Source of the DNA: a virus
Length of the DNA stretch: 27,511 nucleotides
Direction: 5' to 3' (one strand)
Virus record (IMG/VR): IMGVR_UViG_3300042889_001846
Span: 1 to 27,511 of that record
Numbering within the stretch: the stretch's first letter is position 1; the number at the start of each line of letters is the position of its first letter. The position numbers were made by a program, and so were the translations under genes. A model generated the notes under the pieces. That model was not told the origin of the DNA, did no database searches, and worked only from the letters and a program-made list of their open reading frames with translations. Below are positions 14,836 through 27,511 of the stretch, in pieces.

Positions 14836-14842
14836 GGAAACA

Positions 14843-15025
14843 ATGAAGTATTTCATCCGCGGTGGTATCTACACCGATATGTCGTTCACCACCGTGACTC
14901 CGGGTACCGAAGAGGAATACGGTCCCTTTGATACCTACGTGGAAGCTGCTGATGCCTGGAAGGGCTACATGTTCGCCAAGGTGGATATCTGCCCACACCG
15001 TCTGAGCATTATTCCTGAGGAATAA
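14843..15025 (+). CDS. Small DUF4170-like protein, 60 aa
   Basis: The 60-residue protein (KYFIRGGIYTDMSFTTV, then GTEEEYGPFDTYVEAADAWKG and VDICPHRLSII) strongly recalls the small DUF4170 family, which I know mainly from alphaproteobacteria. This recollection has not been checked by search. It lies 7 bases after pncB with GAGGAAA as ribosome binding site, so it belongs to the same transcript. Its function is unknown. If the match is right it hints at an alphaproteobacterial host or donor. Confidence 0.6.
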   Translation: MKYFIRGGIYTDMSFTTVTPGTEEEYGPFDTYVEAADAWKGYMFAKVDICPHRLSIIPEE

Positions 15026-15027
15026 TC

Positions 15028-15055
15028 TAGACAAACTCTGATTCTAGTGTAGATT
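15028..15055 (+). promoter_or_regulatory. Early promoter, TAGACA-16-TAGATT
   Basis: TAGACA (15028-15033), 16 bases, TAGATT (15050-15055). ACTCTGA and TCAGAGT flank the -10 as an inverted repeat, and the element ATTCAGAGTAGAAG is shared with the promoter at 5125. It gives the Nudix-to-PncA part of the NAD operon its own start. Confidence 0.65.
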
Positions 15056-15079
15056 CAGAGTAGAAGAAAAGGAGCATCC

Positions 15080-15667
15080 ATGCACAGTTATCCCTTCCGA
15101 ATGTCGAGCAACACGGCCACCATGCTGGTAATCGACCGTAACCCTGACGACCTTCTGATGAGCCGGGTGTGCATTGGTATCCGCGGCCGTAACGTGGAAG
15201 TTCATCCCAGCAAGCCAAGTCTGCCGGGTGGCTTCATGGAGGCTAAGTTCTCCGCAGCGCAAGCGGCCTTTATGCTCAAGGGTAGCACCTCGGACTTCAT
15301 TCCCCCTGATCTGCATCCGGGTGAAGATCTCGAGACCACTGCCTTGCGTGAGCTCAAGGAAGAGCTCTGCACAGACTTCGAACGTGGGCAGCTCGTTCAG
15401 TATTACACCTGCAGCCTACCGGGTCTGGATCCGCGGGCTCATGTTGTGAACCTCTGCTTCTACCTCGAAGCAACTCCCGAACAAGTCGCATCGATCAAGG
15501 CCGGTGACGACCTCGAGGAGATCGAATGGTGGACCGTATTGGACTGCCTAGAAATGTACCACGAAATCGCCTTCAATCACCGAGACCTGATGCAACGTGG
15601 CCTCAAGGCTTGGGCAAAGGAAGAGCGCTACAAAGAAATGGAGGCCCAACTTGGCCGACCGGCGTAA
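15080..15667 (+). CDS. Nudix hydrolase
   Basis: The 195-residue protein has the catalytic part of the Nudix box, E82-x7-RELKEEL (R90 to L96), including the metal-binding glutamates E94 and E95. The usual leading glycine is displaced. PGG lies at 49-51, and about 30 extra residues separate it from E82, so the box loop is enlarged. Nudix enzymes split nucleoside diphosphates linked to another group. In this operon, ADP-ribose, NADH or NaAD are plausible substrates, but the sequence does not decide. A promoter lies directly upstream and the ATG has a GGAG ribosome binding site. Its end overlaps the start of the adenylyltransferase gene by 17 bases. Confidence 0.85.
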   Translation: MHSYPFRMSSNTATMLVIDRNPDDLLMSRVCIGIRGRNVEVHPSKPSLPGGFMEAKFSAAQAAFMLKGSTSDFIPPDLHPGEDLETTALRELKEELCTDFERGQLVQYYTCSLPGLDPRAHVVNLCFYLEATPEQVASIKAGDDLEEIEWWTVLDCLEMYHEIAFNHRDLMQRGLKAWAKEERYKEMEAQLGRPA

Positions 15668-16316
15668 GTTCGCGGAGATTAAGAATCCGCAAAAGCGTGT
15701 TGGCTTGGCCAATATGCGTACCCAACCCATGCACTTGGGACACCTGGGTATTCTGAATACCATGATTGGTGCCTGCGAGACTGTGATCCTCGGCCTGGGC
15801 TCTGCTCAGAAGGCTCCGGACGAACATGATCCCTGGCCCATCGACAACCGCATTCAACAGGCCCGCAATGTCTACGGTGATCGGATCAAGATCATCCCCC
15901 TGAATGATCTGGGAACCACGGCGGGCACCAACGATTGGATCGATTACGTCTTGGATAAGGCTCAGAAGCTGGGCCTTCCCGAACCGACTGATTACTACAC
16001 GGGCAGCGAGGCCGACGCCATCTGGTATCGGGAACGCTTCTACCGCAAGTTCTTCAGCCCCGTCCCCGAGGATGTCACTCTGCCTCCTGTCTGGGACGAG
16101 AGTGTAGACGAAGCCTACGATGGCTATTATACCGAGGGTGGCGTCCTGCGCCATCTTCATATTCGCGCTCGGGATATGACGCAAGTTCCCAGCGCAACCG
16201 AGATCCGTACCTTCATGGCACTTCGCAATGATGGGTGGAAGCGGTTCGTCCCCCAGGTTAACCATTCACTTGTGGAGGAGACTTATCCACAAGAATTCAG
16301 AGTGAAGAATTCCTAA
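15651..16316 (+). CDS. Nicotinamide/nicotinate mononucleotide adenylyltransferase (HxGH nucleotidyltransferase)
   Basis: I chose the TTG at 15651 because GGAGG lies 6 bases before it. Upstream starts lack a site, and the first ATG (15714) would cut into the fold. The 221-residue protein has the nucleotidyltransferase motif RTQPMHLGH (HLGH at 28-31), then PWPIDNRIQQA, and the C-terminal VPSATEIRTFMA, equivalent to the ISSTxIR motif. This is the NMNAT pattern, closer to the NadM/archaeal type than to NadD. It should adenylate NaMN to NaAD, or NMN to NAD+. Its last 19 codons are a recoded replacement brought by the adjacent homing endonuclease; the original codons remain at 16940-17005. Confidence 0.85.
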   Translation: MADRRKFAEIKNPQKRVGLANMRTQPMHLGHLGILNTMIGACETVILGLGSAQKAPDEHDPWPIDNRIQQARNVYGDRIKIIPLNDLGTTAGTNDWIDYVLDKAQKLGLPEPTDYYTGSEADAIWYRERFYRKFFSPVPEDVTLPPVWDESVDEAYDGYYTEGGVLRHLHIRARDMTQVPSATEIRTFMALRNDGWKRFVPQVNHSLVEETYPQEFRVKNS

Positions 16317-16896
16317 GGATCTTTTTAACCTTTTCTCGGAGGCTGGCCGCGGCAGACATCTTTGCTTTTGCTTCTGGACTACAAACTCTACCCACAGCCT
16401 TCATACGACGAGCCTCTCGGGCTTCAGGGTCTAGGCTATCCCAATAGGTTGATGCACTCTTTGACATCAAACTCTTGGTATCATCACTTGCTTTGGTTCC
16501 GAAACGATGACTGTCCTCTCCAGGTTTATGAGGGTTGTTGTTCCTCATGTATTCTTTGAAAGATTCTGGTTTGGTTTTGCCTTTTGAAGAAGGTGGATTT
16601 GCAGACACACATAGATTGGTAAGTATGCCTTTCTCATCAAATCTCCTCCTACCAAGATCTTTGATGAGTTTCTCTTCGAGTTGATACGCATCGGCTTCGG
16701 AGAGGTCATCGGATATGATCTTAATCACTGGCTCCAAACCTTCTGATCTGATCTGTCCAATAACATTGTCCTTGTATGGATTTTCACCTTTTGTGTAACC
16801 CTTCAAATGGTTGAAGGCGCGAGTCCCAGTGCCCTTTCCGATATAGAAGGGAAGTTCAGTTCTCGGGTCACAGAGTGAATAAACATAGAAAGACAT
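16297..16896 (-). CDS. GIY-YIG homing endonuclease
   Basis: The ATG at 16896 is used because the late promoter (16931-16938) overlaps the longer reading frame. The 199-residue protein has YVYSLCD (GIY element, 4-10), FYIGKGTGTRAFNHL (YIG element plus catalytic Arg) and a later QLEEKLIKDLG that supplies the metal-binding Glu. The C-terminal part carries a basic NUMOD-like tail (SPEAKAKMSAAASLREKVKKIL). It lies opposite to the operon and its last seven codons overlap the end of the adenylyltransferase gene tail to tail. It is AT-rich compared with its GC-rich neighbours and has its own exact TATAAATA promoter. It cuts DNA, probably at the uninterrupted adenylyltransferase 3' end. Confidence 0.85.
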   Translation of the reverse strand: MSFYVYSLCDPRTELPFYIGKGTGTRAFNHLKGYTKGENPYKDNVIGQIRSEGLEPVIKIISDDLSEADAYQLEEKLIKDLGRRRFDEKGILTNLCVSANPPSSKGKTKPESFKEYMRNNNPHKPGEDSHRFGTKASDDTKSLMSKSASTYWDSLDPEAREARRMKAVGRVCSPEAKAKMSAAASLREKVKKILRNSSL

Positions 16897-16930
16897 AGAC
16901 AAACGACCGATCCTAAGTATTATGATCGTG

Positions 16931-16938
16931 TATTTATA
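16931..16938 (-). promoter_or_regulatory. Exact late promoter TATAAATA (minus strand) for the GIY-YIG gene
   Basis: A perfect octamer lies 34 bases before the endonuclease ATG. It lies just inside the insertion edge, next to the stranded adenylyltransferase codons, so the mobile unit carries its own late promoter. Confidence 0.7.
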
Positions 16939-16939
16939 C

Positions 16940-17005
16940 GTCAATCATTCACTGGTTGACGAAACCTACCCGGAAGAGTTCCGGGTAAGGAAACCTGGAG
17001 AATAA
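16940..17005 (+). pseudogene. Stranded original C-terminal codons of the adenylyltransferase gene
   Basis: Read from 16940, the plus strand gives VNHSLVDETYPEEFRVRKPGE and a stop. The working gene now ends VNHSLVEETYPQEFRVKNS (16257-16313). Of 19 aligned residues 14 are identical, yet 11 of those 14 codons differ at silent positions (my count: 39 of 57 bases identical). This is the pre-insertion end of the gene. It ends one base before the pncA ATG and still contains the pncA ribosome binding site (GGAG). Confidence 0.85.
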
Positions 17006-17006
17006 A

Positions 17007-17660
17007 ATGACCAACACCATCGAACTACTGTCCACCGATGCACTCATCGTTGTGGATCCGCAACTGGACTTCTGCCCCGGCGGCGCTCTTGCCGTGACCG
17101 ACGGCGACGAAGTCATGCCACTGATCGTGAACCTGATGGGTCGCTTCGACACCGCCGGCGCCACTATTGTGTTCACCCAGGACTGGCACACTCAGGACCA
17201 AGTCAGCTTCGCTTCCAACCACGGCGTCGCCCCGTTCACTGACATCGAGGTCAGCTACGGAACGCAGACGACCTGGCCCGACCATTGCCTGCAAGGCAGC
17301 ACGGGCGCAGACTTCCACCCCTCACTGAACATGAACAAGGTGGACCTGATCATCCGTAAGGGTGCCCATCCCACCATTGACAGCTACTCGGCTTTCAATG
17401 AGAACGACCGCACGACCAGCACTGGTCTGGCCGGACTGCTCCGTGATCGTGGTATCACGCGCGTCTTCCTCGTGGGTCTGGCTTACGACTTCTGCGTGGG
17501 CTACAGCGCACTGGATGCCGTGACTGAAGGCTTTGACGTCATCATCCTCAAGGACGCCACCCGTGCCATCGACCTCAACGGCAGCGTGGCTATCATGGAA
17601 GAACAGTTCACCCTGGCGGGTGTTCAACTTGTGGACAATCTGAACCCCTACAATGGGTAG
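17007..17660 (+). CDS. pncA: Nicotinamidase
   Basis: The 217-residue protein is a PncA-type isochorismatase-fold hydrolase. The catalytic triad is visible: D17 (IVVDPQLDFCPGG), K118 (IIRKG) and C163 (LAYDFCVGYSA). The metal site is D59-x-H61 (TQDWH) with H93 in WPDHC. It hydrolyses nicotinamide to nicotinate and ammonia, which feed PncB and, for the ammonia, NadE. Before the homing endonuclease arrived, this gene followed the adenylyltransferase stop by one base. Its own GGAG ribosome binding site lies in the stranded codons. The 3' end overlaps the next gene by 8 bases. Confidence 0.93.
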   Translation: MTNTIELLSTDALIVVDPQLDFCPGGALAVTDGDEVMPLIVNLMGRFDTAGATIVFTQDWHTQDQVSFASNHGVAPFTDIEVSYGTQTTWPDHCLQGSTGADFHPSLNMNKVDLIIRKGAHPTIDSYSAFNENDRTTSTGLAGLLRDRGITRVFLVGLAYDFCVGYSALDAVTEGFDVIILKDATRAIDLNGSVAIMEEQFTLAGVQLVDNLNPYNG

Positions 17661-18147
17661 GATTATCCGGGCACCGGAGACCTGGGAGCGCACCTACGCT
17701 CCTGGTGTCTTCCTTGCAGGTGGCATCTCGAACTGTGTGGACTGGCAGGAAGCTGTCGCTCATAAAATCTCCCAGGCGACCGACTTGGATGTGATCAATC
17801 CTCGGCGCTATGACTGGAACATGGACAGTCAGAGCGAAGAGAGTATTGCCCAGATCGAGTGGGAATACAAGCAGATCCACGACTGTGATTATATGCTGTT
17901 CTGGTTCTGTGAAGAGACACTCTGTCCTATCACGCTCTATGAGTTGGGTATGGCCGTGAGTCGTCGAGAACTTCGTAGGTCTCCCGATCATGTGCCGCTC
18001 GTCGTGGGTGTGCATCCCAACTATCAGAGAAAGCTGGACGTCTACACTCAGGTTGGATTGCATCGTCCCGAGGTCACCCTATATGAGGATCTCGACTTTA
18101 TGGTTGATGAGTTCGTAGCTCAGTATCTGGAAGCATCCAAGCGTTGA
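17653..18147 (+). CDS. Nucleoside 2-deoxyribosyltransferase-like protein
   Basis: The 164-residue protein has GVFLAGGISNCVDWQ at the N-terminus, then INPRRYDWNM, HDCDYMLFWFCEETLCPITLYELG with the family's acidic residues, and a C-terminal VHPNYQRKLDV. This fits the second nucleoside deoxyribosyltransferase family (Nuc_deoxyri_tr2), proteins with a Rossmann-like fold that cleave or swap bases on nucleosides. The start overlaps the end of pncA by 8 bases, so it belongs to the NAD operon. A role in base exchange on NAD-related or nucleoside substrates is possible but not shown. Its stop overlaps the next promoter. Confidence 0.75.
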   Translation: MGRIIRAPETWERTYAPGVFLAGGISNCVDWQEAVAHKISQATDLDVINPRRYDWNMDSQSEESIAQIEWEYKQIHDCDYMLFWFCEETLCPITLYELGMAVSRRELRRSPDHVPLVVGVHPNYQRKLDVYTQVGLHRPEVTLYEDLDFMVDEFVAQYLEASKR

Positions 18148-18171
18148 CACTTTGGAGAGGTAGTGTACTCT
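18144..18171 (+). promoter_or_regulatory. Early promoter, TTGACA-16-TACTCT
   Basis: TTGACA (18144-18149), 16 bases, TACTCT (18166-18171). The ATG of the RNA ligase is 7 bases past the -10, so transcription should begin at the start codon. GGAGAG and CTCTCC flank the -10 as an inverted repeat. Confidence 0.7.
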
Positions 18172-18178
18172 CTCCTAC

Positions 18179-18838
18179 ATGGAAACGCCGCACAAATATC
18201 CGTCAACGCTGCATTGGGTCGATAGTCCCGAGGTGCACCGTGATGACAACGTGCATCAGCACCCGGAGAACTTCCTCAACGTCGAGGTCGTGATCTCCGA
18301 GAAGCTTGATGGCGGCAACACCTGCCTGTGGAAGGGTGACGTTTACGCTCGCTCCACGGGACAGCCTGCCACGCAGGGTTGGTTCGCCATGGTGAAGAAG
18401 CATCACGCCTGGAAGACCATGAGCCTCGATTCCTCGTACCAAGTCTACGGTGAGGACCTCTACGGCATTCACAGTATCGAATACGAGGCTCTCCGTGAGG
18501 ATGAGACCTATCGGGTGTTCAACATCCGAGAAGACGATACTTGGATGAGCTGGGACGATATGCAGGAACTGGCAGGTGATCTCGACCTCATGACCGTGCC
18601 CACCTTGTTCCGTGGAACCTTCGATCGTGTCCAAGACATCACGGCTTGGATGCAAGAGCAAATCAATCTGCCCAGCAGCATAGGTGGTCCCCGTGAGGGA
18701 TTCGTGATGCGCTATGCTGATGCGTTCCATAACGATGACTTCCAGGCACGGACGGCCAAGTTCGTTCGAAGGGGCCATGTGCAAACCGATGAGCACTGGA
18801 CCAAGAACTGGAAGCCCATTCCCTTGGTGAAAAGCTAA
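18179..18838 (+). CDS. ATP-dependent RNA ligase
   Basis: The 219-residue protein carries the nucleotidyltransferase motifs of covalent RNA ligases: motif I EKLDGGN (41-47, adenylated K42), YARSTGQ, YGEDLYGIHSIEY (motif III region), EGFVMRYADAF (motif IV) and TAKFVRRGHV (motif V). It is close to the minimal catalytic domain, shorter than T4 Rnl1 or Rnl2, and without an extra C-terminal domain. Such ligases repair nicked tRNAs or RNAs after host anticodon nucleases act. The AMP product could be recycled, and ligases related to NAD metabolism exist, but this one should use ATP. It starts a three-gene operon with one-base overlaps. No ribosome binding site precedes the ATG. Confidence 0.88.
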   Translation: METPHKYPSTLHWVDSPEVHRDDNVHQHPENFLNVEVVISEKLDGGNTCLWKGDVYARSTGQPATQGWFAMVKKHHAWKTMSLDSSYQVYGEDLYGIHSIEYEALREDETYRVFNIREDDTWMSWDDMQELAGDLDLMTVPTLFRGTFDRVQDITAWMQEQINLPSSIGGPREGFVMRYADAFHNDDFQARTAKFVRRGHVQTDEHWTKNWKPIPLVKS

Positions 18839-19515
18839 TGAGCTGGACCTCCATTACCACTCGCGTGGGAGTCGCGGCTAGTATGCCAAAACCGGCCGAG
18901 CCCATTGATGTGGGTTTGGAGGCCATGGCCTCGCGACTGGATATGCACCCCAGGGTGGTCAAGGTACTCATGGCATCGGCTCTCAAGAGCGACCACGAGG
19001 GCATCCAAAAGCAAATCGCGGATCTCCTGGTCATAACGAAGATGACTCATCCCGAGGCGGCGGCCAAGGAAGCCGCCCAGATCGCGTTTGAAGAGAAGCT
19101 ACGCATTCAAGAGGAGAGGCAGAAGCGAGAGCAGGCCCTTGCTCAGATGGATGCGTATCGCCGGCAAGAGCAGAGAGAAAAGGACGTTGAGGCTAGGCTT
19201 GGAGCGGCACGTCACCAAAATCTCCTTAACGCTCAGAAGGTCGTGGATGAACTCTACGACAAGATCAAGGGTGGGTTGAGTTTTGACCGCCTGGGCTATC
19301 AGGAGCAGAGTCTCGTAGGAGCGATCACTGATCTTCATGGTAACCATATCGAGCGTGGTGGCTTCCTGTGGTTCAAGGTGACCTGGACTGGACCTACGAT
19401 CCAGCTTGATCGAAATCATGAGCTCTACGAGTGGTTGAAGAAGAATCGCTTTGCGCTCTTTGCCGAGGAACCCAAGCGCGTCAGCCATGGCTTCTACACC
19501 AGGTGGGAGGAGTAA
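18838..19515 (+). CDS. Hypothetical coiled-coil protein, 225 aa
   Basis: Its ATG overlaps the RNA ligase stop (TAATG) and its stop overlaps the next ATG (TAATG), so all three genes are coupled. The middle (about 75-135) is a charged Ala/Glu/Gln/Arg-rich coiled coil (KEAAQIAFEEKLRIQEERQK and on). The C-terminal part (about 160-225) is a small mixed fold rich in Trp (GGFLWFKVTWTGP...YEWLKKNRFALF). I do not recognise a family. Context suggests a partner or structural helper for the RNA ligase, but that is only co-location. Confidence 0.7.
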   Translation: MSWTSITTRVGVAASMPKPAEPIDVGLEAMASRLDMHPRVVKVLMASALKSDHEGIQKQIADLLVITKMTHPEAAAKEAAQIAFEEKLRIQEERQKREQALAQMDAYRRQEQREKDVEARLGAARHQNLLNAQKVVDELYDKIKGGLSFDRLGYQEQSLVGAITDLHGNHIERGGFLWFKVTWTGPTIQLDRNHELYEWLKKNRFALFAEEPKRVSHGFYTRWEE

Positions 19516-20612
19516 TGGCCTATAGTGAAGCCCTGAGTTCGCTGGTGGATGGCTACGACGCTGGAACGGCTACCATCATCCCTCCAGTGGAGGAGGATGC
19601 ACGGCCCAGATGTATCTTGGTTCGACCCACTATCATCTCTGCCAAGGTCAAAGCCGATTCGCATGAGAAGGTGTCTACAGAGAAACTTGCTTCTCTTCCA
19701 CTAGAACCAATTGACCGGCCACCACCGTCTGCTGAGCCCTACCGATCTCTAGGTAAGAAGTACAACGTCTGTGGTGTTGAGTTGGAATTCATCATGAAAG
19801 CTCTGCTTCATGATGAAAATGAAACCGTAGATCGTGCGTTCCGTCAATTTCTCATGATTGCCAAGTTGAGTGCTGTTGAGCCACTTGAACAAGCCCATAC
19901 TCTAATCCGAAATACTGATGATTTGAATCGCACCGTGCGCGAAACTTGGATTAGTAATACTGCGGCAATCAAACAGAGAAACGCGGCATTGAAGCGCCGT
20001 CTCACCCAGGCCAAAAAGGCCATGGATGCTCCCTGGCAGGGCGTACTGTCTACCCTCAAGACTCTTCTCGAGGAAGACAATCGTGTTGAAAGTCTGCACC
20101 CTCATGACTTCTTTATGGTTCAGGCCATGCAGAAGCATATGGGTAAGAAGCTGGTGGTGATCCGTGATGGTAAGATCAGGATCAAGTTCGACGACCTCAA
20201 GATTCTCAACGCTGACTTTGGTCTTCGGGTCATGGAAACCGCTCTGGCTATGAGCGATCGGTACCACGCGAATGCGGTACAAGACTGGCTGAATGATCGT
20301 AAGAACGTCAAACAGATCCGAGAAATCCTTGAATCGCCCATGGTGACTAAGCTCAAGACCCAAGAAGTCAATGAGATGACGCGGATCGTCCTCGCTGCTG
20401 ACAAGCGGATCATCATAGTCACCGCAGATGGAGATGTCTGCGATGGCGGACCGCGTATCAAGGGTCAACCTCATGTGGTCTATGAACAGGAAGAGCGTTG
20501 GAATAGTTACAGCAAAAACGGTGGTTATCAGAACATCACAATTGACTTCGGCAATAGGTCAGTATGGGAGCTCGAGAGAATAAGACGCCATCTAAAGGAT
20601 TACACTTCCTAA
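19515..20612 (+). CDS. Hypothetical protein, 365 aa
   Basis: The ATG at 19515 overlaps the previous stop and has a strong GGGAGGAG ribosome binding site. The first 100 residues are proline-rich and probably disordered. The central part is helical and basic (ALKRRLTQAKKAMD). The end is beta-rich and close to the C-terminal pattern of other phage orphans (QNITIDFGNRSVWELERIRRHLKDY). No known domain is recognised. It closes the RNA ligase operon. Confidence 0.7.
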   Translation: MAYSEALSSLVDGYDAGTATIIPPVEEDARPRCILVRPTIISAKVKADSHEKVSTEKLASLPLEPIDRPPPSAEPYRSLGKKYNVCGVELEFIMKALLHDENETVDRAFRQFLMIAKLSAVEPLEQAHTLIRNTDDLNRTVRETWISNTAAIKQRNAALKRRLTQAKKAMDAPWQGVLSTLKTLLEEDNRVESLHPHDFFMVQAMQKHMGKKLVVIRDGKIRIKFDDLKILNADFGLRVMETALAMSDRYHANAVQDWLNDRKNVKQIREILESPMVTKLKTQEVNEMTRIVLAADKRIIIVTADGDVCDGGPRIKGQPHVVYEQEERWNSYSKNGGYQNITIDFGNRSVWELERIRRHLKDYTS

Positions 20613-20616
20613 ACGG

Positions 20617-20644
20617 TTGACGATCTCACCATCAGTGTTACTCT
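20617..20644 (+). promoter_or_regulatory. Early promoter, TTGACG-16-TACTCT
   Basis: TTGACG (20617-20622), 16 bases, TACTCT (20639-20644), followed by GAAT. It leaves a 25-base leader with AAGGAG before the FtsK-like gene. TACTCTGAA is shared with the promoter at 22860. Confidence 0.75.
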
Positions 20645-20668
20645 GAATTAAGAAATAAGGAGAACCCG

Positions 20669-21883
20669 ATGACCATGTTTGAAAGCCCTCTCATGACCCC
20701 GTTCGTGGATCTCGGTGAGGCGACCGCCGATGTGGTTTCTCCCCTCTCGCAGGAGAGTCAATTGCTTCTGAGCGTTCTCAAGGAGTTCGGCTTTCAGGGC
20801 GTGATCGGTAAGGTGCGTCGTGGCCCGGTGGTCACCATCCACGAGTTCATCCCCAGCGGTGGCGTGAAGATGCGCAACATCATCGCTTGCGCTGACGACA
20901 TCGCGCGTAACATGGCGGTGCAAAGCTGCCGCATCGCAACCGTGCCCGGAAGCAAGGCTCTGGGCTTTGAAATCCCCAACCAAGTTCGTGAGACGGTCAA
21001 GTTCAGCGACATGCTGAAGTGGCTGGAATACAATGCTGGTGACATGGTTCTGCCCATGGCCATCGGTGAGAGCATTGATGGCGAGCCAGTAGTCGCAGAC
21101 CTGACCAAGATGCCTCACCTGCTGGTTGGTGGCACCACGGGCTCGGGTAAGAGCGTGGGACTCAACACGATGATCCTGAGCCTGGTCGAACGCTACAAGG
21201 CCGATTACGCCCAGTTCGTTATGATCGATACCAAGATGCTTGAGCTGGGTGTCTACAACGGCATCCCGCATCTGCAACGGCCGGTGATCACCGACGCGGA
21301 ACAGGCCGTGTTGGCCCTCAACGATGTCGTGCAGGAGATGGAACGTCGGTACAAGCTCATGGCGGACTTCCGTGTCCGTAACATCAAGAGCTACAACGAC
21401 TTCATGCAGGAAGCTCGTGACGCCAACCATGTCTTCAAGTTCACCGATCAAACGGGTGAGACCATGGGCGGTATGCCCATCTACGAAAGCCGCATCGTTG
21501 AACCCAAGGCCCTGCCCTACATCGTGGTTGTCATTGATGAAGTGGCGGACCTCATGCTCGTGGCGGGCAAGGAAGTGGAGAAGGCGGTACAGCGACTGGC
21601 TCAGATGGCTCGGGCTGCTGGCATCCACCTCATCATGGCCACCCAACGGCCGTCGGTCGATGTCATCACCGGGACGATCAAGGCGAACTTCCCCAGTCGG
21701 ATTGCATTCCAGAGCGCCAGCGCCATCGACTCCCGGACCATCCTGGGTGCAATGGGTGCCGAGAAGCTGCTGGGTATGGGAGACTTGTTGATGAGCCTCA
21801 CGGGTAGTGAACCCCGTCGAGTCCACGGTAGTTTCATCAGCGATGCCGGCGTCCAAGAAGTTGTTGATCGGTTGCGCGTCTAG
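20669..21883 (+). CDS. FtsK/SpoIIIE-type DNA translocase motor
   Basis: The 404-residue protein covers the alpha and beta motor domains of FtsK/SpoIIIE. The Walker A is GTTGSGKS (155-162), the Walker B is YIVVVIDEVADLM (284-296), and between them VMIDTKMLELGVYNGIPHL is a close variant of the family's IDPK(M)LELSxYxGIPHL. MATQRPSVDVITGTIKANFPSRIAF (two stretches) follows, then GMGDLLM. It lacks the N-terminal membrane segments and the C-terminal gamma (KOPS-binding) domain, and ends just after the motor with a short SDAGVQEVVDRLR. It should be a soluble hexameric double-stranded DNA pump. Possible roles are genome segregation, clearing DNA of proteins or packaging support. It has a dedicated promoter and an AAGGAG ribosome binding site. 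Confidence 0.92.
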   Translation: MTMFESPLMTPFVDLGEATADVVSPLSQESQLLLSVLKEFGFQGVIGKVRRGPVVTIHEFIPSGGVKMRNIIACADDIARNMAVQSCRIATVPGSKALGFEIPNQVRETVKFSDMLKWLEYNAGDMVLPMAIGESIDGEPVVADLTKMPHLLVGGTTGSGKSVGLNTMILSLVERYKADYAQFVMIDTKMLELGVYNGIPHLQRPVITDAEQAVLALNDVVQEMERRYKLMADFRVRNIKSYNDFMQEARDANHVFKFTDQTGETMGGMPIYESRIVEPKALPYIVVVIDEVADLMLVAGKEVEKAVQRLAQMARAAGIHLIMATQRPSVDVITGTIKANFPSRIAFQSASAIDSRTILGAMGAEKLLGMGDLLMSLTGSEPRRVHGSFISDAGVQEVVDRLRV

Positions 21884-21887
21884 AATA

Positions 21888-21951
21888 TAGACAAATCTGG
21901 TGTGTTGAAAATAGGCTGGTCTCATAGGGGCAATATCCCCAGGAGACCAGC
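21888..21951 (+). promoter_or_regulatory. Weak early promoter and ribosome-site-masking hairpin before 21952
   Basis: TAGACA (21888-21893) lies 16 bases before a poor -10 (AATAGG, 21910-21915). GCTGGTCTC (21915-21923) pairs perfectly with GAGACCAGC (21943-21951), with GGGG/CCCC (21927-21930/21937-21940) nested inside. The right arm contains most of the AGGAGA ribosome site and ends at the base before the TTG start, so folding should block translation. Confidence 0.6.
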
Positions 21952-22275
21952 TTGTCCACCCTTACTGACATTGAAGATCAAGCCTTTCTTGTAGATCTAC
22001 TTACCCAATCGAGTGAGGATCTAAAGGATCTACTCGACCATCTCACAGATGGCTTTCAGGAGAGATTTGGCGAAGAAGCCAATCCCCTGTACCTGCATAT
22101 TCAGCTTCTCTCGCAGCATCTAGGCCGCGCCATAGCGCAGGGACCATTAGATATGCGGGCGCAACTCATGAGTGAAGCACGGGATCAAGAGGCCCTTGTG
22201 CTCGCGCATTGGGATGAACCTGACGAAGATGATCCAACTGGCCTCTTGGGCATGAGTACCAAAGGTAGCGCATGA
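21952..22275 (+). CDS. Hypothetical acidic protein, 107 aa
   Basis: It starts with TTG behind AGGAGA (5 bases), inside the base of a strong hairpin. The protein is acidic and helical (DQAFLVDLLTQSSEDLKDLL, then HWDEPDEDDPTGLLG near the end). No family is recognised. The stop overlaps the ATG of the next gene (ATGA), so the pair is coupled. The same arrangement, a small gene overlapping a paralogue of the next gene, is seen at 11289-12331. Confidence 0.6.
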   Translation: MSTLTDIEDQAFLVDLLTQSSEDLKDLLDHLTDGFQERFGEEANPLYLHIQLLSQHLGRAIAQGPLDMRAQLMSEARDQEALVLAHWDEPDEDDPTGLLGMSTKGSA

Positions 22276-22853
22276 TCGCGTATATGATTAGAAACAAGAC
22301 TACTGGTAAGTTCTGGAATGGACGAGCCTCTTGGAGTCAATGGGCGGACACCGGCCGACAGTGGAGAAAGAAGAAGGGTGTGGAGGATCAAATCGCCTAC
22401 TACTTCCGCTACCATGTTCGATACAAGGCTGGCCTCCCTCTGACCTTGGACGACTGGGAGATTGTTGAAGTCGACGTGGCGCCTCTGGTTCAGAAGTCCG
22501 AGGACATCGTGGGTCTTATTCGCCATGTGAAGATCCGCCAAAAGCTCTCGGAGACCAGTGAGAACTTCAGCAGTTTCTTGAGTATGATGCGAGACAAAGG
22601 AGTCGAGGACACCATTGAATTCATCATGGATCTGGAACCCACGCCGGGACAACGCTGGGTGGACCGGGACCGTATCAAGGAAGCTCGTGCCCAACTTCGC
22701 GGCATGGGTATCAAGACTCGTACCTTCCGAGAATACCGTGGAATGTTTGGGTTCTTGGATCGCCAGCAGGCCATGCAAGCCCGCCTGGTTCTTAACGCCA
22801 AGCGGTTCATCGATGTGTCGGCTATTCGGAAAGAAGTGGACGGTGCGGTCTAA
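22272..22853 (+). CDS. Hypothetical protein, 193 aa; paralogue of the protein at 11714
   Basis: The N-terminus (YMIRNKTTGKFWNG), the DDWEIVEVDV block and the C-terminal GFLDRQQAMQARLVLNAKRF line up with YRIRNGKGLWSNGG, PEDWEIVEFVIV and AFKDKSQAMLFKLEFKHK of the protein at 11714-12331. They look like distant members of one family. The start overlaps the preceding stop. The function is unknown; the family seems to be one of the small-fold orphans common in T4-like phages. Confidence 0.7.
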   Translation: MIAYMIRNKTTGKFWNGRASWSQWADTGRQWRKKKGVEDQIAYYFRYHVRYKAGLPLTLDDWEIVEVDVAPLVQKSEDIVGLIRHVKIRQKLSETSENFSSFLSMMRDKGVEDTIEFIMDLEPTPGQRWVDRDRIKEARAQLRGMGIKTRTFREYRGMFGFLDRQQAMQARLVLNAKRFIDVSAIRKEVDGAV

Positions 22854-22859
22854 AAACGG

Positions 22860-22887
22860 TTGACCTTTGGTGTCCTGAGTTTACTCT
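22860..22887 (+). promoter_or_regulatory. Early promoter, TTGACC-16-TACTCT
   Basis: TTGACC (22860-22865), 16 bases, TACTCT (22882-22887), then GAA. ACTCT-GAACGTA-AGAGT forms an inverted repeat at the expected start of transcription. An AAAGGAG site follows before the ATG at 22918. Confidence 0.75.
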
Positions 22888-22917
22888 GAACGTAAGAGTT
22901 AAGCAAAGGAGATCTAA

Positions 22918-23280
22918 ATGGCAACCGTGCTTCAAGACTTCGGCCGTGATTCGGAACGCTTCGGTGACATCCCCTTCTACTACGGCTTCCCGCATCGCTT
23001 CTACTTCGGCCAACACCAGATCATGCCCGAGGATGTGGAGACCTGGTGCCGTGAGAACTGCCGGGGTTACTACAAGACGGTGACCTACACCCACAAGTCG
23101 TCCAAGCGGGACCGCAAGGGCAACTACGATGAACGGGTCATCTACGTGGACAAGATCTACCTGGCCAGTGACGAAGACGCGATGCTGATCAAGCTGAGCT
23201 TCAACGTCACAGACCAGATCGTCAAGGGCCGGCCGCGTATCAAGAACCGCCGCAAGGTTCGGCGTATCAAGACCAAATAA
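22918..23280 (+). CDS. Hypothetical basic protein, 120 aa
   Basis: The start has a good AAAGGAG ribosome binding site and its own promoter. The N-terminal part is aromatic (DIPFYYGFPHRFYFGQHQI), the middle has two cysteines (ETWCRENCRGYY), and the end is very basic (KGRPRIKNRRKVRRIKTK), suggesting nucleic acid binding. YLASDEDAMLIKLSF recalls the C-terminal element of the proteins at 11714 and 22272. No known family is assigned. The next gene follows after 9 bases. Confidence 0.65.
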   Translation: MATVLQDFGRDSERFGDIPFYYGFPHRFYFGQHQIMPEDVETWCRENCRGYYKTVTYTHKSSKRDRKGNYDERVIYVDKIYLASDEDAMLIKLSFNVTDQIVKGRPRIKNRRKVRRIKTK

Positions 23281-23289
23281 GGAGATGAC

Positions 23290-23745
23290 GTGACCAAAGA
23301 ACAGAAAGCAAAGGTGTGGGCCTGGGGGATCTATTGGTCCTTCATGGCCTACTATGTCGCGGCCTACATCACCCAGGACAGTTTCCTGCTACGGCATCTC
23401 GAACTGGTGGTCAACGTGGACCTCTGGATCTTCACCCTCATTCCCGCATTGCTCATGGCGGGAGGTGTTGCCATCATGCGCCGCAACATACCATCCATGC
23501 TCAGAGAGATGCGGGAGAAGGGTGCCACCGAAGAAAACATTGCCAACTTCCTGGAGGTAGTAAGACCCAAGGTCACCGGAGAGAATGGTGTGGCCCTTGT
23601 GAGTGCTCTATGGTTGAGTATCATGGTCAGTCTGCTGGGATTGCATTTCCAGGCTATCGCGATGCTGTCCATCACGGTACTGGCCCACAGTGTTCTCATT
23701 CTTTTGCCTATTAAGAAAGTTGACGAGATCACTCCCGTAATCTAA
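23290..23745 (+). CDS. Four-helix membrane protein, 151 aa
   Basis: It starts with GTG behind AAGGAG. Four hydrophobic segments are visible (about 10-28, 43-63, 99-116, 119-141), in two pairs separated by a charged loop of about 35 residues (RRNIPSMLREMREKGATEEN). Its function is unknown; a holin-like, exclusion or membrane-remodelling role is possible. It is co-transcribed with the basic protein before it. The end of the gene contains a TTGACG element for the RNA that follows. Confidence 0.65.
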   Translation: MTKEQKAKVWAWGIYWSFMAYYVAAYITQDSFLLRHLELVVNVDLWIFTLIPALLMAGGVAIMRRNIPSMLREMREKGATEENIANFLEVVRPKVTGENGVALVSALWLSIMVSLLGLHFQAIAMLSITVLAHSVLILLPIKKVDEITPVI

Positions 23746-23748
23746 AGT
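23720..23748 (+). promoter_or_regulatory. Possible promoter, TTGACG-17-TAAAGT, for structured RNA
   Basis: TTGACG (23720-23725) lies inside the end of the membrane protein gene and TAAAGT (23743-23748) on its stop codon, 17 bases apart. Transcription would start near 23755, at the head of the structured segment. Confidence 0.45.
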
Positions 23749-23754
23749 AAAGAT

Positions 23755-23958
23755 GTAGTAGCCTGGGATCGTAGCCCTTGTTAGTGGTGGAGAAACCATT
23801 CACCGACGGCAAGGACCGACCAGGCGGTCCGGTAGGGACGGGGTGGTTACCGTTGTACCTACTTCAAGTAAGTGCCAGCGTATCTTACAGTTGAGCGAGG
23901 ACTGCGGAAGTCGTCAACGCGCTGGGCGAGGATCAGCAAGTCCCTAATAAGGACTTGC
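23755..23958 (+). ncRNA. Candidate structured RNA A, about 200 nt
   Basis: No gene fits between 23745 and 23989. Nested complementary pairs are visible on the plus strand. CCTTG/CAAGG (23776-23780/23810-23814) encloses GGTG/CACC (23786-23789/23801-23804). GGACCG/CGGTCC (23813-23818/23825-23830) follows. CCAGCG/CGCTGG (23875-23880/23920-23925) encloses GTTGA/TCAAC (23890-23894/23914-23918). The end is the perfect hairpin GCAAGTCC-CTAATAA-GGACTTGC (23936-23958), which lacks a T-run. I do not recognise the RNA family. Confidence 0.5.
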
Positions 23959-23969
23959 GTGTAGGATGA

Positions 23970-24012
23970 TTTGGCGTAAACTGGCAGCATGTCTGATCCA
24001 GTTTACGCCAAA
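23970..24012 (+). promoter_or_regulatory. 15-bp perfect hairpin with the start codon in its loop
   Basis: TTTGGCGTAAACTGG (23970-23984) pairs perfectly with 23998-24012, leaving a 13-base loop that holds the ATG of the next gene (23989-23991). No ribosome binding site lies within the loop; the nearest purine-rich site (AGGA, 23963-23966) is outside the stem. It could control translation or be a protein-bound operator. Confidence 0.7.
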
Positions 24013-24222
24013 CTCATATTCAATGAGTTCCATGTAGAATATACGAATGACCCTTACGATACCGAGGGCTTCGAGGTATTCACCGCGCGTGAACTTCATC
24101 TCAATGGCTTCAAGACTGTTCCCACCGTCGAGGAATTCGTAGCCTCTGCGGAGGGAAACTGGGGTGTTGATATCAAGGAGGTCAAGGACAAGTATGGCAA
24201 CGTCCTCTACCCTACTCAATAA
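23989..24222 (+). CDS. Hypothetical protein, 77 aa
   Basis: The ATG lies in the loop of a 15-bp hairpin and the first eight codons form one arm of it. The protein is acidic (IFNEFHVEYTNDPYDTEG, then FVASAEGNWGVDIKEVKDKYG) with mixed helix and strand, and no family is recognised. The next gene starts inside its 3' end with AAGGA upstream. Confidence 0.5.
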   Translation: MSDPVYAKLIFNEFHVEYTNDPYDTEGFEVFTARELHLNGFKTVPTVEEFVASAEGNWGVDIKEVKDKYGNVLYPTQ

Positions 24223-24511
24223 ACTGAGCTGGAATGGTCTGATCATCATCTTTGCAATCAAGACGATGATGACCGATGGTTCGATGTACACCGACTTCAG
24301 CCGGCAGACTTTTGATGACTGGGAGGATCTGTCATTCAAGGACTGGAAGGTTCCACCTAGCAGTCCCTATCCTGACATTGATGAGATCCTTGCAGAGCTC
24401 TACAACTATTCCTTTGGTGAAAGCCCTCTAGCAGTTTTTGATAAGAACCGGAACCTCATCTGGGAACGGGACACTGGTGCTTGGGAGGCTAGTGGCCTCC
24501 CAGTTCCTTGA
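24194..24511 (+). CDS. Hypothetical protein, 105 aa
   Basis: I chose the ATG at 24194 for its AAGGA site 8 bases upstream, giving a 29-base overlap with the previous gene; an internal start at 24260 is possible. Acidic and aromatic segments (DFSRQTFDDWEDLSFKDWKV, DIDEILAELYNYSFGE) fill the middle. A short hydrophobic stretch (WNGLIIIFAI) lies near the N-terminus. It has no recognised homology. Confidence 0.45.
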   Translation: MATSSTLLNKLSWNGLIIIFAIKTMMTDGSMYTDFSRQTFDDWEDLSFKDWKVPPSSPYPDIDEILAELYNYSFGESPLAVFDKNRNLIWERDTGAWEASGLPVP

Positions 24512-24549
24512 GTTCCAACCTTCTACCCAAATCTCTACAAGGTATGTAG

Positions 24550-24577
24550 TTGACGAATCAGGAACTGGCGTTACACT
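24550..24577 (+). promoter_or_regulatory. Early promoter, TTGACG-16-TACACT, with no protein gene behind it
   Basis: TTGACG (24550-24555), 16 bases, TACACT (24572-24577), followed by GAA as in the other early promoters. The expected start near 24584 coincides with the first stem of structured RNA B, so it probably drives that RNA. Confidence 0.6.
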
Positions 24578-24580
24578 GAA

Positions 24581-24767
24581 GACTCAACTACGAGACTGGG
24601 CTGCAATGCCTGAAGGGGGTCGGTATCCCTGGGATGATCCACATGGACCTTGTACGTCCGGATGAGTCCTGTACGCCTACGGCCAGTGCGGCTGCGGCGG
24701 TTCTCCTTCGGGAGGGTCTGGTGCTTTAGGGTCCAGGTGGACCCGGTGGGAGGTGAGGATTCTCCCC
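24581..24767 (+). ncRNA. Candidate structured RNA B, about 185 nt
   Basis: GC-rich sequence with a promoter directly upstream. GACTCA/TGAGTC (24581-24586/24663-24668) encloses ATCC-CTG-GGAT (24625-24635) and GGAC-CTTGTAC-GTCC (24645-24659). Downstream lie CTCC-TTCG-GGAG (24703-24714, a stable UUCG tetraloop), the perfect GGGTCC-AGGT-GGACCC (24729-24744) and a last hairpin GGGAG/CTCCC (24748-24766) ending at the stop codon of the facing gene. A short open frame (24438-24665) crosses it but lacks a start signal. The family is not recognised. Confidence 0.55.
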
Positions 24768-25223
24768 TTAGTTGTAATCGCCGTCTATCTTCTCAAGTGT
24801 GAAGAAGCTGGCCTCGTCTGTGTCATCAACAGCCGTGCGATAACCAAGCTCAGCAACCTGACCCTTAAGCTTCCTTGCGATCGCCATGTAGAGTGAACTC
24901 TTGTTGTCATAGCTTTTGTCAGCGGCAAAGCGGAGTTCTTCGGGTTGCTCGTCAGCTAAGAAGTCTTTGATGCCCTGTACGACATGACCGAGGACCTGAA
25001 TGGCACCACTGCCTTGTTGCCCCGTGTTACCCATCTCGAAGTCTGTGGTCTCTTTATCACGAGCACCGAAAATGATGTTCCAGATGTTGTTATGACCATG
25101 TAGGAATACACCAGTGAAATCCTGCTCCCCTACACCAAAACGAAAGACCTGTTTACCATGGGATTTCTCCCAATTAAGGTCTTTGTCATCAAAGGTTTCG
25201 GTTACGATTTCACGCCATCTCAT
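24768..25223 (-). CDS. Hypothetical protein, 151 aa
   Basis: I chose the ATG at 25223 (MRWREIVTETF) because a late box (AGTAAATA) ends 5 bases before it, exactly where the transcript should start; a longer start at 25289 would span the promoter. GGAG also lies 12 bases upstream of the ATG. The protein has a beta-rich first half (KQVFRFGVGEQDFTGVFLHG) and a C-terminal half (IKDFLADEQPEELRFAADKS, then SLYMAIARKL) like small alpha/beta proteins found in many large phages. No function can be assigned. Confidence 0.65.
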   Translation of the reverse strand: MRWREIVTETFDDKDLNWEKSHGKQVFRFGVGEQDFTGVFLHGHNNIWNIIFGARDKETTDFEMGNTGQQGSGAIQVLGHVVQGIKDFLADEQPEELRFAADKSYDNKSSLYMAIARKLKGQVAELGYRTAVDDTDEASFFTLEKIDGDYN

Positions 25224-25228
25224 GTGGT

Positions 25229-25236
25229 TATTTACT
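25229..25236 (-). promoter_or_regulatory. Late promoter, AGTAAATA (minus strand), 5 bases before ATG
   Basis: The box faces the gene at 24768-25223 and has the same 5-base gap to the ATG as the one at 6386, suggesting a leaderless late transcript. Confidence 0.55.
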
Positions 25237-25259
25237 CCAAAGAGTCTGTCCGCTACAAT
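25231..25259 (+). promoter_or_regulatory. Sigma70-like promoter, TTTACT-17-TACAAT
   Basis: TTTACT (25231-25236) and TACAAT (25254-25259) are 17 bases apart and face the gene at 25265. They overlap the divergent late box, so the two directions may exclude each other. The ATG lies 5 bases past the -10. Confidence 0.5.
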
Positions 25260-25264
25260 AAGGA

Positions 25265-25516
25265 ATGACTCGAGAAGAACGCTCCTCATTCCTCCGCGAA
25301 CAATTGATTCGCAATGGTACCTATACCGAAGAAGTGATGGCCAAGGCCGAGCAGATCTTCTATGATACCCACCCTCGTGGTCTCACGTCTCCCTTCCAGC
25401 ACTGGATCGAAACGGCTAGTGCGCCAACACAAAGCTACTTTGCCAAACTGGCACGGGTTGCTCTGGCTAATGAAGAGAAGCTAAAAGCAGAAGGTGAAGT
25501 GACTACTCTTAAGTAG
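25265..25516 (+). CDS. Hypothetical helical protein, 83 aa
   Basis: An 83-residue, mostly helical protein (TREERSSFLREQLIRNG, AKLARVALANEEKLKAEGE). The ATG follows the -10 box by 5 bases, and AAGG immediately precedes it, too close for a normal ribosome site, so it may be read from a leaderless transcript. The stop codon lies in a perfect hairpin (ACTACT-CTTA-AGTAGT, 25502-25517). No family is recognised. Confidence 0.6.
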   Translation: MTREERSSFLREQLIRNGTYTEEVMAKAEQIFYDTHPRGLTSPFQHWIETASAPTQSYFAKLARVALANEEKLKAEGEVTTLK

Positions 25517-25704
25517 TGAACGGAGTAGTCGGTGCGGATTGGAGGCGGCCGCATAGGTCGCTTGCTGGACTTGTCCGGTAGTTGGAAGAGCATAAATCAC
25601 TCGGCTGGTATAGGGCCGGACTGTTCGAGGACAGGGACGGGAACGATAATTCCGTATGAAACTTTTCCGGAGGATCCTGGGTCGGGGAAGCCCAGGGCTT
25701 CACA
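25517..25704 (+). ncRNA. Candidate structured RNA C, about 185 nt
   Basis: No gene fits between the two convergent genes. Visible pairs are CTGT/ACAG (25621-25624/25631-25634), ACGG-G-AA/TT-CCGT (25637-25643/25650-25655) and CCTGGG-TCGGGGAAG-CCCAGG (25676-25696). GTCCGGTAG and AGGGACGGG strings are shared with RNA A, which may be chance. Orientation is uncertain; plus is assumed from the upstream gene. The evidence is weaker than for the other candidates. Confidence 0.35.
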
Positions 25705-25902
25705 TTAGAGTTCTAGACTCCCATCAGGTTTGATAGTCACGGATTCTAGACCATCAATGATGGCTTGGAAGTTGGCATTCCGCAGAGCTTCATGTTCGCG
25801 CACGATTGACCGCTTCTGCTCATTGAGCTTGATCTTACGCTTCTGAGCCTTACGGGTCTTGGCTGCTTGGTGTAGTCTGGACTGACTAGTTGGCTTCTTC
25901 AT
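25705..25902 (-). CDS. Small basic protein, 65 aa
   Basis: The ATG at 25902 has a strong GGAGG site 5 bases upstream and a late box ACTAAATA behind it; an in-frame ATG at 25941 precedes the promoter. The first half is very basic (RLHQAAKTRKAQKRKIKLNE), suggesting RNA or DNA binding, and the C-terminal half is acidic. Its place among structured RNAs makes RNA binding worth testing. No family is recognised. Confidence 0.6.
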   Translation of the reverse strand: MKKPTSQSRLHQAAKTRKAQKRKIKLNEQKRSIVREHEALRNANFQAIIDGLESVTIKPDGSLEL

Positions 25903-25924
25903 GGGGACCTCCGTTATGGTCTGA

Positions 25925-25932
25925 TATTTAGT
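25925..25932 (-). promoter_or_regulatory. Late promoter, ACTAAATA (minus strand)
   Basis: A late box lies 22 bases before the ATG of the small basic protein, with GGAGG between. Confidence 0.6.
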
Positions 25933-25975
25933 TGACCCCAATGTTTGGTTTCAGTATAAGTAGAAATGCACACCT

Positions 25976-26061
25976 GCCCAGGTGGCGGAACGGTAGACGC
26001 GCAGCCTTGAGGTGGCTGTGTCCGAAAGGACGTGGAGATTCGAATTCTCTCCTGGGCACCA
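25976..26061 (+). tRNA. tRNA-Leu (anticodon GAG)
   Basis: A complete class II cloverleaf is visible. The acceptor is GCCCAGG/CCTGGGC with discriminator A and encoded CCA. The D arm has GGCGGAACGGTAGACGC. The anticodon arm is CAGCC-TTGAGGT-GGCTG (GAG). There is a long variable arm (GTCC-GAAA-GGAC) and a T loop TTCGAAT. It reads CUC/CUU. A large structured segment starts immediately after the CCA. Confidence 0.95.
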
Positions 26062-26670
26062 AACTGTTGTTCTCCTAGAACATCAGCCAGCAGGGACCGG
26101 GTAACCGGCCCTTTGATATGACGAGAGTTACTGCTGGACGCTAATGTTGCCTGGGTCGATAAAGGGGCTGGGCGACTTCTTCGGATAGGCGTAACACTGG
26201 ATCTAGGGGAAGGGGCATGAAGTCAACCCGTTATCTCCGGGGACGAATGGTGTGGGGTGAGGAAACCCATCAACAGTTAGAGATTCACAGAGCCCCAGCG
26301 GCGGCATCCGGATGCCAAAGTAGAGGCTGGATGCAGTCGACCTAGGAAGCTGCGGCGTGCCGTGGTGGAGGAAGGGTGCTGGCGAGAGGGGATGCCAGCC
26401 TGTGGATACTACAGAGGCCTCCTGTCGTGGGATCAAGGCCTGGAGCGAGCGCTGGTCCCAGAGGGATAATTGTGATGGCACAACCGGCGGTGAGGGGACG
26501 AGGAACCTCTCCTGTAGATCGACTACTGAACCCTGTGAGTAATATGCGGATGCTGAGCTCGTGTGCCAATATGGACCTCCTGAATATCAGGCACCGGGGT
26601 TGGTTGCTGTAGTCAAGGTGTTTCTAGTGAACTGGCGTCTTGACGGTGATGGGAATGTGGAGTCCATCCA
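26062..26670 (+). ncRNA. Large structured RNA candidate D, about 600 nt, downstream of tRNA-Leu
   Basis: No protein gene fits in 660 bases. Many pairs are visible: TGTTCT-CCT-AGAACA (26068-26082), CCAGCAG/CTGCTGG (26087-26093/26131-26137) enclosing CCGG-GTAA-CCGG (26097-26108, a GNRA-type loop), GGCAT-CCGG-ATGCC (26303-26316), GCTGGC/GCCAGC (26378-26383/26394-26399), AGGCCT/AGGCCT (26415-26420/26436-26441) and CCTGA-ATA-TCAGG (26579-26591). Size, complexity and a position right after a phage tRNA fit giant phage RNAs of the ROOL or GOLLD kind, but I cannot confirm a family match. It may be processed from the tRNA transcript, since no separate promoter is obvious. Confidence 0.55.
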
Positions 26671-26674
26671 GTAG

Positions 26675-26702
26675 TTGACATTCTGGAATCCAATGTTACA
26701 CT
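26675..26702 (+). promoter_or_regulatory. Early promoter, TTGACA-16-TACACT
   Basis: TTGACA (26675-26680), 16 bases, TACACT (26697-26702). It precedes the small membrane protein gene at 26726, with a GAGGAGA ribosome site. Confidence 0.75.
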
Positions 26703-26725
26703 ATGGCTTTGCAGAGGAGACATTT

Positions 26726-26854
26726 ATGGGACTAATCATTATCGGCCTCACCCTGGTCGGCGCTGTGGCCTATCTCATCTTCGGTCCGAAGCCGGAATAT
26801 CCCATGACTCCCGAAGAAGAAGCCGAAGACATCGAACTGTGGCGTGGCCTCTGA
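26726..26854 (+). CDS. Small single-span membrane protein, 42 aa
   Basis: A 42-residue protein with a strong GAGGAGA ribosome binding site and its own promoter. Residues 2-19 (GLIIIGLTLVGAVAYLIF) form one membrane segment, followed by an acidic tail (TPEEEAEDIELW). No homologue is recognised. Its signals make it a likely real gene; small phage proteins of this form often modify host membrane complexes, though nothing specific can be said. Confidence 0.65.
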   Translation: MGLIIIGLTLVGAVAYLIFGPKPEYPMTPEEEAEDIELWRGL

Positions 26855-27099
26855 ACCAGTCCTATTGGACTTGGATATCCTTTCAAGCCATGGACCTCGA
26901 AACGAGGCTTCGTGGCTGGAAGTACGTCAATGAAGATTGGCGATCCAGTGAATACGACATAATCAGGCACAACTTCGAGGCCTGTAACGACAACGACGAC
27001 GCTGTCCGGTTCATATATGATGAAGAACTGGAGCGCCTTCTACGGCTCTGGATAGTATGTGGTCAGGATGATGTGCTGACCAAACTTTCCTGGGTATGA
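26839..27099 (+). CDS. Hypothetical protein, up to 86 aa
   Basis: The start is uncertain: a GTG at 26839 overlaps the previous gene, and the first ATG is at 26890 (MDLETRLRGWKYVNEDW), neither with a clear ribosome site. The body is acidic and aromatic (DNDDAVRFIYDEELERLLRLW). It is probably read by coupling to the membrane protein gene. No family is recognised. Confidence 0.5.
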   Translation: MAWPLNQSYWTWISFQAMDLETRLRGWKYVNEDWRSSEYDIIRHNFEACNDNDDAVRFIYDEELERLLRLWIVCGQDDVLTKLSWV

Positions 27100-27116
27100 T
27101 TCACGAGAATTAGAAA

Positions 27117-27145
27117 TAGACAAGTGCTTCTTCCCGCACTATTCT
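27117..27145 (+). promoter_or_regulatory. Promoter, TAGACA-17-TATTCT, for structured RNA E
   Basis: TAGACA (27117-27122), 17 bases, TATTCT (27140-27145). The expected start is about 27152, one base before the 5' strand of the RNA's closing stem at 27153. Confidence 0.65.
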
Positions 27146-27152
27146 AAAGGAA

Positions 27153-27315
27153 GATTTGCTGCTAAGGCGAGTGTGGGTGCATCTCTTGTACGACCCATCT
27201 AGTCCGGGCCCGCAGGAGCGATAAAGGTTCCTGCCCGGAGCAAGCTTGGTTGCTATGGTGCTCACTTTGAATGGGTTCCGGTGTGGGAAACGAGGATGCC
27301 CACTAGCAGCAAGTC
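27153..27315 (+). ncRNA. Structured RNA E, 163 nt, closed by a 12-bp terminal stem
   Basis: The ends pair over 12 positions (27153-27164 with 27304-27315, one G-T pair). P2 follows directly on the 3' side: GTGGGTGCATC (27173-27183) with GATGCCCAC (27295-27303), two bulged bases. Then P3 GACCCAT/ATGGGTT (27192-27198/27271-27277) encloses two hairpins: TCCGGGC/GCCCGGA with inner AGGA/TCCT (27203-27239), and GCAA/TTGC (27240-27253). No gene fits. A promoter places the 5' end at the stem. No U-run follows the stem; TCTATAATGAC does. The architecture, a long terminal stem and a multibranched head, is clear, but no known family is recognised. Confidence 0.7.
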
Positions 27316-27354
27316 TATAATGACTACCCGATCGACCGCCTGTTACTATTTAGA

Positions 27355-27511
27355 ATGACAGGCACATTGGCATTGACGTGGGACGTTTCAGATCTCACGG
27401 AAATACTCCAAGGATCAGGTAGCAGTAATATGTACGATCATTTCGTCTCCCGAGTAGTACTCAATCTTCTTCGCACCTGGAAGCCTACGTTCACTGAGGA
27501 CAACTTCCTCA
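27355..27511 (+). CDS. Partial hypothetical protein, runs off the window
   Basis: From the ATG at 27355 the frame stays open for 52 codons to the window end (TGTLALTWDVSDLTEILQGS, then MYDHFVSRVVLNLLRTWKP). A weak promoter (-10 TACTAT at 27344-27349) lies 5 bases before the ATG and no ribosome site is seen, as in other possible leaderless genes here. A minus-strand late-like box TCTAAATA overlaps the start. No family is recognised. Confidence 0.5.
   Translation, partial: MTGTLALTWDVSDLTEILQGSGSSNMYDHFVSRVVLNLLRTWKPTFTEDNFL

Follow-up and report, generated by a model that had tools for sequence, protein, structure and literature searches.

The right end of virus record IMGVR_UViG_3300042889_001846 (positions 1 to 27,511, the whole of which was analyzed and is called the window here) carries a candidate for a compact RNA whose 5' end is set by a promoter. 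This description is supported in silico by a closing helix, the register between this helix and a promoter, a location within a non-coding, G-rich patch, and a fold that is better on the plus strand than on the minus strand. The element extends one previously described at positions 27153 to 27315 by one base pair, and the main observation of that preliminary description is partly confirmed: the helix, the promoter, and the non-coding context hold, and the inner fold is unsettled. We tentatively read positions 27152 to 27316 as a stand-alone, trans-acting small RNA of a jumbo phage similar to Agrobacterium phage Atu_ph07. The features discussed below are as follows.

27117 to 27145, plus strand: sigma-70-like promoter TAGACA-17-TATTCT, 9 of 12 consensus matches
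27152 to 27316, plus strand: candidate structured RNA, with a fold z score of −3.97, a 13-bp closing helix, and no overlapping open reading frame (ORF) of at least 60 amino acids
27152 to 27164, plus strand: 5' arm of the terminal helix
27173 to 27183, plus strand: 5' arm of the second helix in the best fold, with a 2-nt bulge at 27177 to 27178
27212 to 27234, plus strand: hairpin with a GCAGGA/TCCTGC core, found in the best fold and in a majority of the alternative folds listed
27238 to 27263, plus strand: second hairpin of the branched tip, its pairing differing between near-best folds
27295 to 27303, plus strand: 3' arm of the second helix in the best fold, abutting the terminal helix
27304 to 27316, plus strand: 3' arm of the terminal helix
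27355 to 27511, plus strand: downstream ORF, truncated where the window ends, without a Pfam match

The terminal stem, originally given as 12 bp, was borne out as a helix of 13 bp including one G-U pair. None of 400 shuffles reached a 13-bp helix with at most one G-U pair; when G-U pairs were allowed without limit, a helix of this length was reached by 4% of 1,000 shuffles of positions 27100 to 27354. With G-U pairs likewise unrestricted, the whole window contains 24 helices of at least 12 bp and comparable span, showing that helix length alone is not rare. The second stem, proposed as 9 bp stacked on the 3' side of the terminal stem, is present in the best fold and directly adjoins the 3' arm; here, positions 27173 to 27176 and 27179 to 27183 pair with 27295 to 27303 (9 bp, with the 2-nt bulge).

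Transcription is expected to start about 6 to 9 nt past the promoter hexamer. Since the TAGACA-17-TATTCT site ends at position 27145, the start is expected at 27151 to 27154, and the promoter predicted from the sequence therefore sets the +1 position at the first base pair of the helix, as had been claimed. The chance that such a site falls no more than 2 nt from the required position is about 0.2% given the frequency in shuffles (3.0 sites per 3,812 bases, both strands) and about 0.5% given the frequency actually observed in the surrounding patch (8 sites). A predicted promoter of its own at the 5' end, with a consensus match in register, is what an independently transcribed small RNA would have. 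A terminator-like site was not found 3' of the candidate RNA on the plus strand.

The complete element folds with −71.6 kcal/mol (z score of −3.97; 0 of 200 shuffles were as good), and when the test was repeated with 100 shuffles, the z scores were −3.3 for the plus strand and −2.39 for the minus strand. For the inner part alone (27165 to 27303), the z score was −1.86, with 5 of 100 shuffles equally good, and several alternative inner folds lay within 3 kcal/mol of the best one. The consistent multibranched fold put forward in the preliminary description was thus upheld for the first two stems and for the stability of the whole piece but not for the weakly folding inner part or the third stem, which we take to be ACCCAT/ATGGGT (27193 to 27198 with 27271 to 27276) and which, when forced, raises the energy by 4.4 kcal/mol relative to the best fold. 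Fold energy alone proves little, since 10 of 684 segments (160 nt long, on a fixed 80-base grid) had z scores below −4, many of them inside genes.

According to the open reading frame list, no ORF of at least 60 amino acids overlaps the candidate RNA, and the longest ORF over it encodes 51 amino acids on the minus strand. The RNA lies in a gene-poor patch (23746 to 27511) that contains a tRNA-Leu and in which 1,678 of 3,766 bases (44.6%) are outside ORFs and the tRNA, versus 1,451 of 23,745 bases (6.1%) elsewhere (based on our own gene list, drawn up from the ORF list and by inspection). G exceeds C on the plus strand in all five gaps of the patch (519 versus 360 in total), whereas in the four other gaps of at least 100 nt in the window, taken together, it does not (166 versus 182). 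Sigma-70-like sites number 8 in the patch, compared to 3.0 in shuffles (standard deviation, 1.8). From its composition, the patch could consist of a row of RNA genes. Three of its five non-coding units are unlikely to be leaders, because the next gene is on the opposite strand (24512 to 24767 and 25517 to 25704) or has its own promoter (26062 to 26726). Fold z scores of the other units were mixed, at −3.09, −0.55, and −2.59, the two halves of the longest unit scoring −1.09 and −0.19. A common origin of the units was not supported by the 10 pairwise local alignments (best P value, 0.08).

Judging from protein identities, the record represents part of a jumbo-phage genome with Atu_ph07 and Sinorhizobium phage Phosso among its relatives: a 120-amino-acid protein (22918 to 23280) is 50.5 to 56.7% identical to proteins of these two phages, and an enzyme (13462 to 14835) is 48.7 to 50.0% identical to its counterparts there. 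The gene set at 11714 to 23280 is largely common to five IMG/VR loci (L009 to L013), in similar order.

Non-coding status, helix, promoter match, and context were computed directly, and transcription, processing, and protein binding are what we infer for the RNA. It would be one of several plus-strand non-coding units in the tRNA-associated patch. Host sigma-70 RNA polymerase would begin transcription at the first base of the terminal helix, and the transcript would fold into a rod of two stacked helices with a branched tip. With no terminator 3' of the RNA, we propose that the transcript would be cleaved within an AU-rich sequence immediately past the helix (CTATAATGAC) and then trimmed to the helix, which would generate its 3' end. 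The closed helix would shield both ends, and the stable RNA could bind a protein of the phage or of the host while infection proceeds, although protein binding as its mode of action is an unlikely guess at this stage.

The main rival to a stand-alone RNA is that the element forms a structured 5' leader for the gene that follows, with a transcript that continues into the ORF at 27355 or to a later in-frame start and a fold that controls expression; we consider this rather unlikely. The ORF is on the same strand, with its ATG only 39 nt on, and neither a terminator nor a second promoter-like site lies between it and the RNA; the missing terminator is what keeps the leader in consideration. However, inspection revealed no clear ribosome-binding site ahead of this first ATG that the fold could mask, the RNA is self-closed and makes no pairs with the start region when a longer sequence is folded, at least three further units in the patch are unlikely to be leaders, and no riboswitch family of Rfam matches the RNA.

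Relatives of the putative stand-alone RNA were sought at several levels. With Rfam, only tRNA was found at the gathering score and nothing credible at loose thresholds, the sole match within 27130 to 27360 being LPR10 on the opposite strand (E value of 3.3). In blastn searches, the candidate RNA had no match at an E value of ≤1 in 50,697 phage records or in 72,556 plasmid records; the whole patch matched 49 phage records at an E value of ≤5, and in each of the 20 listed, the match falls on the tRNA-Leu. A covariance model built from the one sequence recovered the candidate RNA itself and nothing at an E value of ≤5 in any of 12 related or candidate phage records. When it was run with filters off on 11 stretches of relatives (most of them from tRNA islands), only short hairpins were returned (best E value, 0.068), most of which cover hardly more than the terminal helix. 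As a one-sequence model detects close relatives only, this null result is weak evidence of absence. The five loci with shared gene order contain no tRNA, have 0 to 3 gaps of at least 130 nt per locus after the shared gene, and yielded no homologue. No homologue was reached through relatives of the genes at 24768 to 25289 and 25265 to 25516 in viral contigs or of those at 25265 to 25516 and 26893 to 27099 in phage records, and the single match for 27355 to 27510 (E value of 0.3) led to none. The tRNA-bearing stretches of relatives include gene-free gaps of 418 to 723 nt (L125, 8594 to 9316; L127, 5103 to 5520; L130, 1 to 697; L134, 2343 to 2854), and in an Rfam search of such stretches of related jumbo phages, the 150 of 162 matches listed were all tRNA. 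Searches of open-licence literature showed no description of the candidate RNA, and the main text of the Atu_ph07 genome paper does not use the words non-coding, ncRNA, promoter, terminator, or intergenic (PMC6102473).

The lack of a relative would suit a non-functional intergenic sequence in which helix and promoter match both arose by chance, a reading to which we also give a low probability. It is favored by the z scores near −4 elsewhere in the window, genes included, and by the 4% of shuffles that reach such a helix when G-U pairs are unrestricted; moreover, as PMC8250186 cautions, a fold computed from one sequence alone does not show that a structure is conserved, which holds for the candidate RNA also. 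In contrast, the failure of all 400 shuffles to match the helix under the limit of one G-U pair, the promoter in register with the helix, the strand asymmetry of the fold, and the non-coding, G-rich nature of the patch argue against chance. Overall, a stand-alone RNA is suggested by the closing helix, the z score of −3.97, the promoter register, the non-coding gap, and the G-rich patch; against it stand the single sequence without homologue, the unsettled inner fold, the missing terminator, and the mixed, unaligned units of the patch. We keep this reading as a tentative one, and since it concerns one sequence without relatives, the RNA is a candidate rather than a finding.

Several sequence matches were set aside. 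A 32-base near-repeat of the candidate RNA at 2860 to 2891 is a chance match, located inside a small reading frame (at about 2798 to 2905 by our own reading) with flanks that cannot be aligned, and so is a match of 24 nt to a related phage (E value of 0.01), which lies within an ORF and has no hairpin. An exact 17-base match to GGGAAACGAGGATGCCC (from the region of 27284 to 27301) was found in two phage contigs, both times in non-coding sequence ahead of a terminator. We rejected it as a shared hairpin, and chance is the best explanation. Because the two contigs are homologous at the match, it counts as one event, and a 16-base control pattern from the candidate RNA gave 10 matches (all 10 in ORFs of at least 101 amino acids), indicating that the number of GGGAAACGAGGATGCCC matches is about that expected by chance. 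The inner 15 bases were located in stop-free frames of at least 102 codons at 39 of 41 viral loci, the other two being the same two contigs (L038 to L041, repeats of these contigs, were excluded from the frame count); of the 37 bacterial loci with the 17 bases, 36 had them in frames of at least 138 codons and one in a frame of 99. The hairpin core is not enriched in the tRNA islands of relatives (AACGAG, 12 of 78; ACGAGG, 11 of 68; eight other six-base cores, 15 to 22%). It is a slight oddity that both non-coding matches have a hairpin-like context.

Rows of non-coding stretches were observed in two other phage contigs, L040 (8000 to 8224, 9430 to 9664, and 8232 to 8510) and L041 (7378 to 7600 and 7865 to 8143, minus strand). 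By inspection, they have promoter- and terminator-like ends; they share the motif GTAAGACC and have no Rfam match. One kind has two copies in L040 (72.6% alike) and a single copy in L041 (78.9%), and another is present once in each contig (90% alike). In a three-sequence alignment, 10 of 44 predicted pairs were changed on both sides with pairing kept.

The functions suggested earlier (6S-like regulator, ribozyme, or scaffold) found no support: 6S and ribozyme families are included in Rfam, and no family matched even at loose thresholds. 6S RNA has a similar length, a closed terminal stem, and a large central bubble mimicking an open promoter. The candidate RNA resembles it in length and closed stem, but 27130 to 27360 has no 6S match in Rfam at an E value of ≤10 and the best and near-best predicted folds lack a large central bubble, making a 6S-like role in binding host RNA polymerase very improbable. 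ROOL RNAs are several hundred nucleotides long. ROOL and GOLLD are phage non-coding RNAs often found near tRNA islands, and many GOLLD members exceed 800 nt, according to PMC12286853. The candidate RNA likewise shares its patch with a tRNA-Leu, but it is only about 165 nt long and has no Rfam match, and neither covariance model matched within 23700 to 27511 at an E value of ≤5. A setting like that of ROOL and GOLLD is also seen for 26062 to 26726, a stretch of 665 nt without genes directly after the tRNA-Leu (G, 223; C, 143); it has no Rfam match, and neither half has an unusual fold energy. Like RNA candidates from comparative genomics (for example, PMC2864571), the candidate RNA is non-coding, with a predicted structure and no assigned role, but those rest on comparison of homologues and ours on one sequence.

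Sponges for CsrA/RsmA-type proteins repeat ANGGA, the fuller binding motif, in hairpin loops. We rejected such a sponge, with GGA motifs in hairpin loops, as the least probable reading: GGA occurs 55 times in the five patch units versus 41.0 in shuffles (z score of 3.2, for a motif chosen after viewing the sequences), but ANGGA is not enriched in the patch (9 versus 8.5; z score of 0.2) and is absent from the candidate RNA.

If the stand-alone RNA is real, it adds one more structured RNA of jumbo phages, and tRNA-rich, gene-poor patches of these phages may hold RNA genes missed by annotation. More speculatively, and in our estimate improbably, the right end could be a jumbo-phage RNA island of a tRNA and about five unrelated, undescribed structured RNAs, with the candidate RNA as a compact, promoter-driven member founding its own family.

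Other features of the record were also observed. ARAGORN predicts a tRNA-Ser (tga) at 1440 to 1525, where the best Rfam match is the tRNA-Sec model (53.3 bits); the preceding ORF (819 to 1448) carries a NUMOD3 motif and may thus encode a homing endonuclease beside this tRNA. A perfect 12-bp inverted repeat is located at 4912 to 4936, and the segments overlying it have the lowest fold z scores of the scan (down to −6.4). A response-regulator receiver domain lies next to a low-affinity iron permease-like protein (4 to 770), and adjacent NAD-salvage genes encode NAD synthetase-like and nicotinamide phosphoribosyltransferase-like proteins (12434 to 14835).
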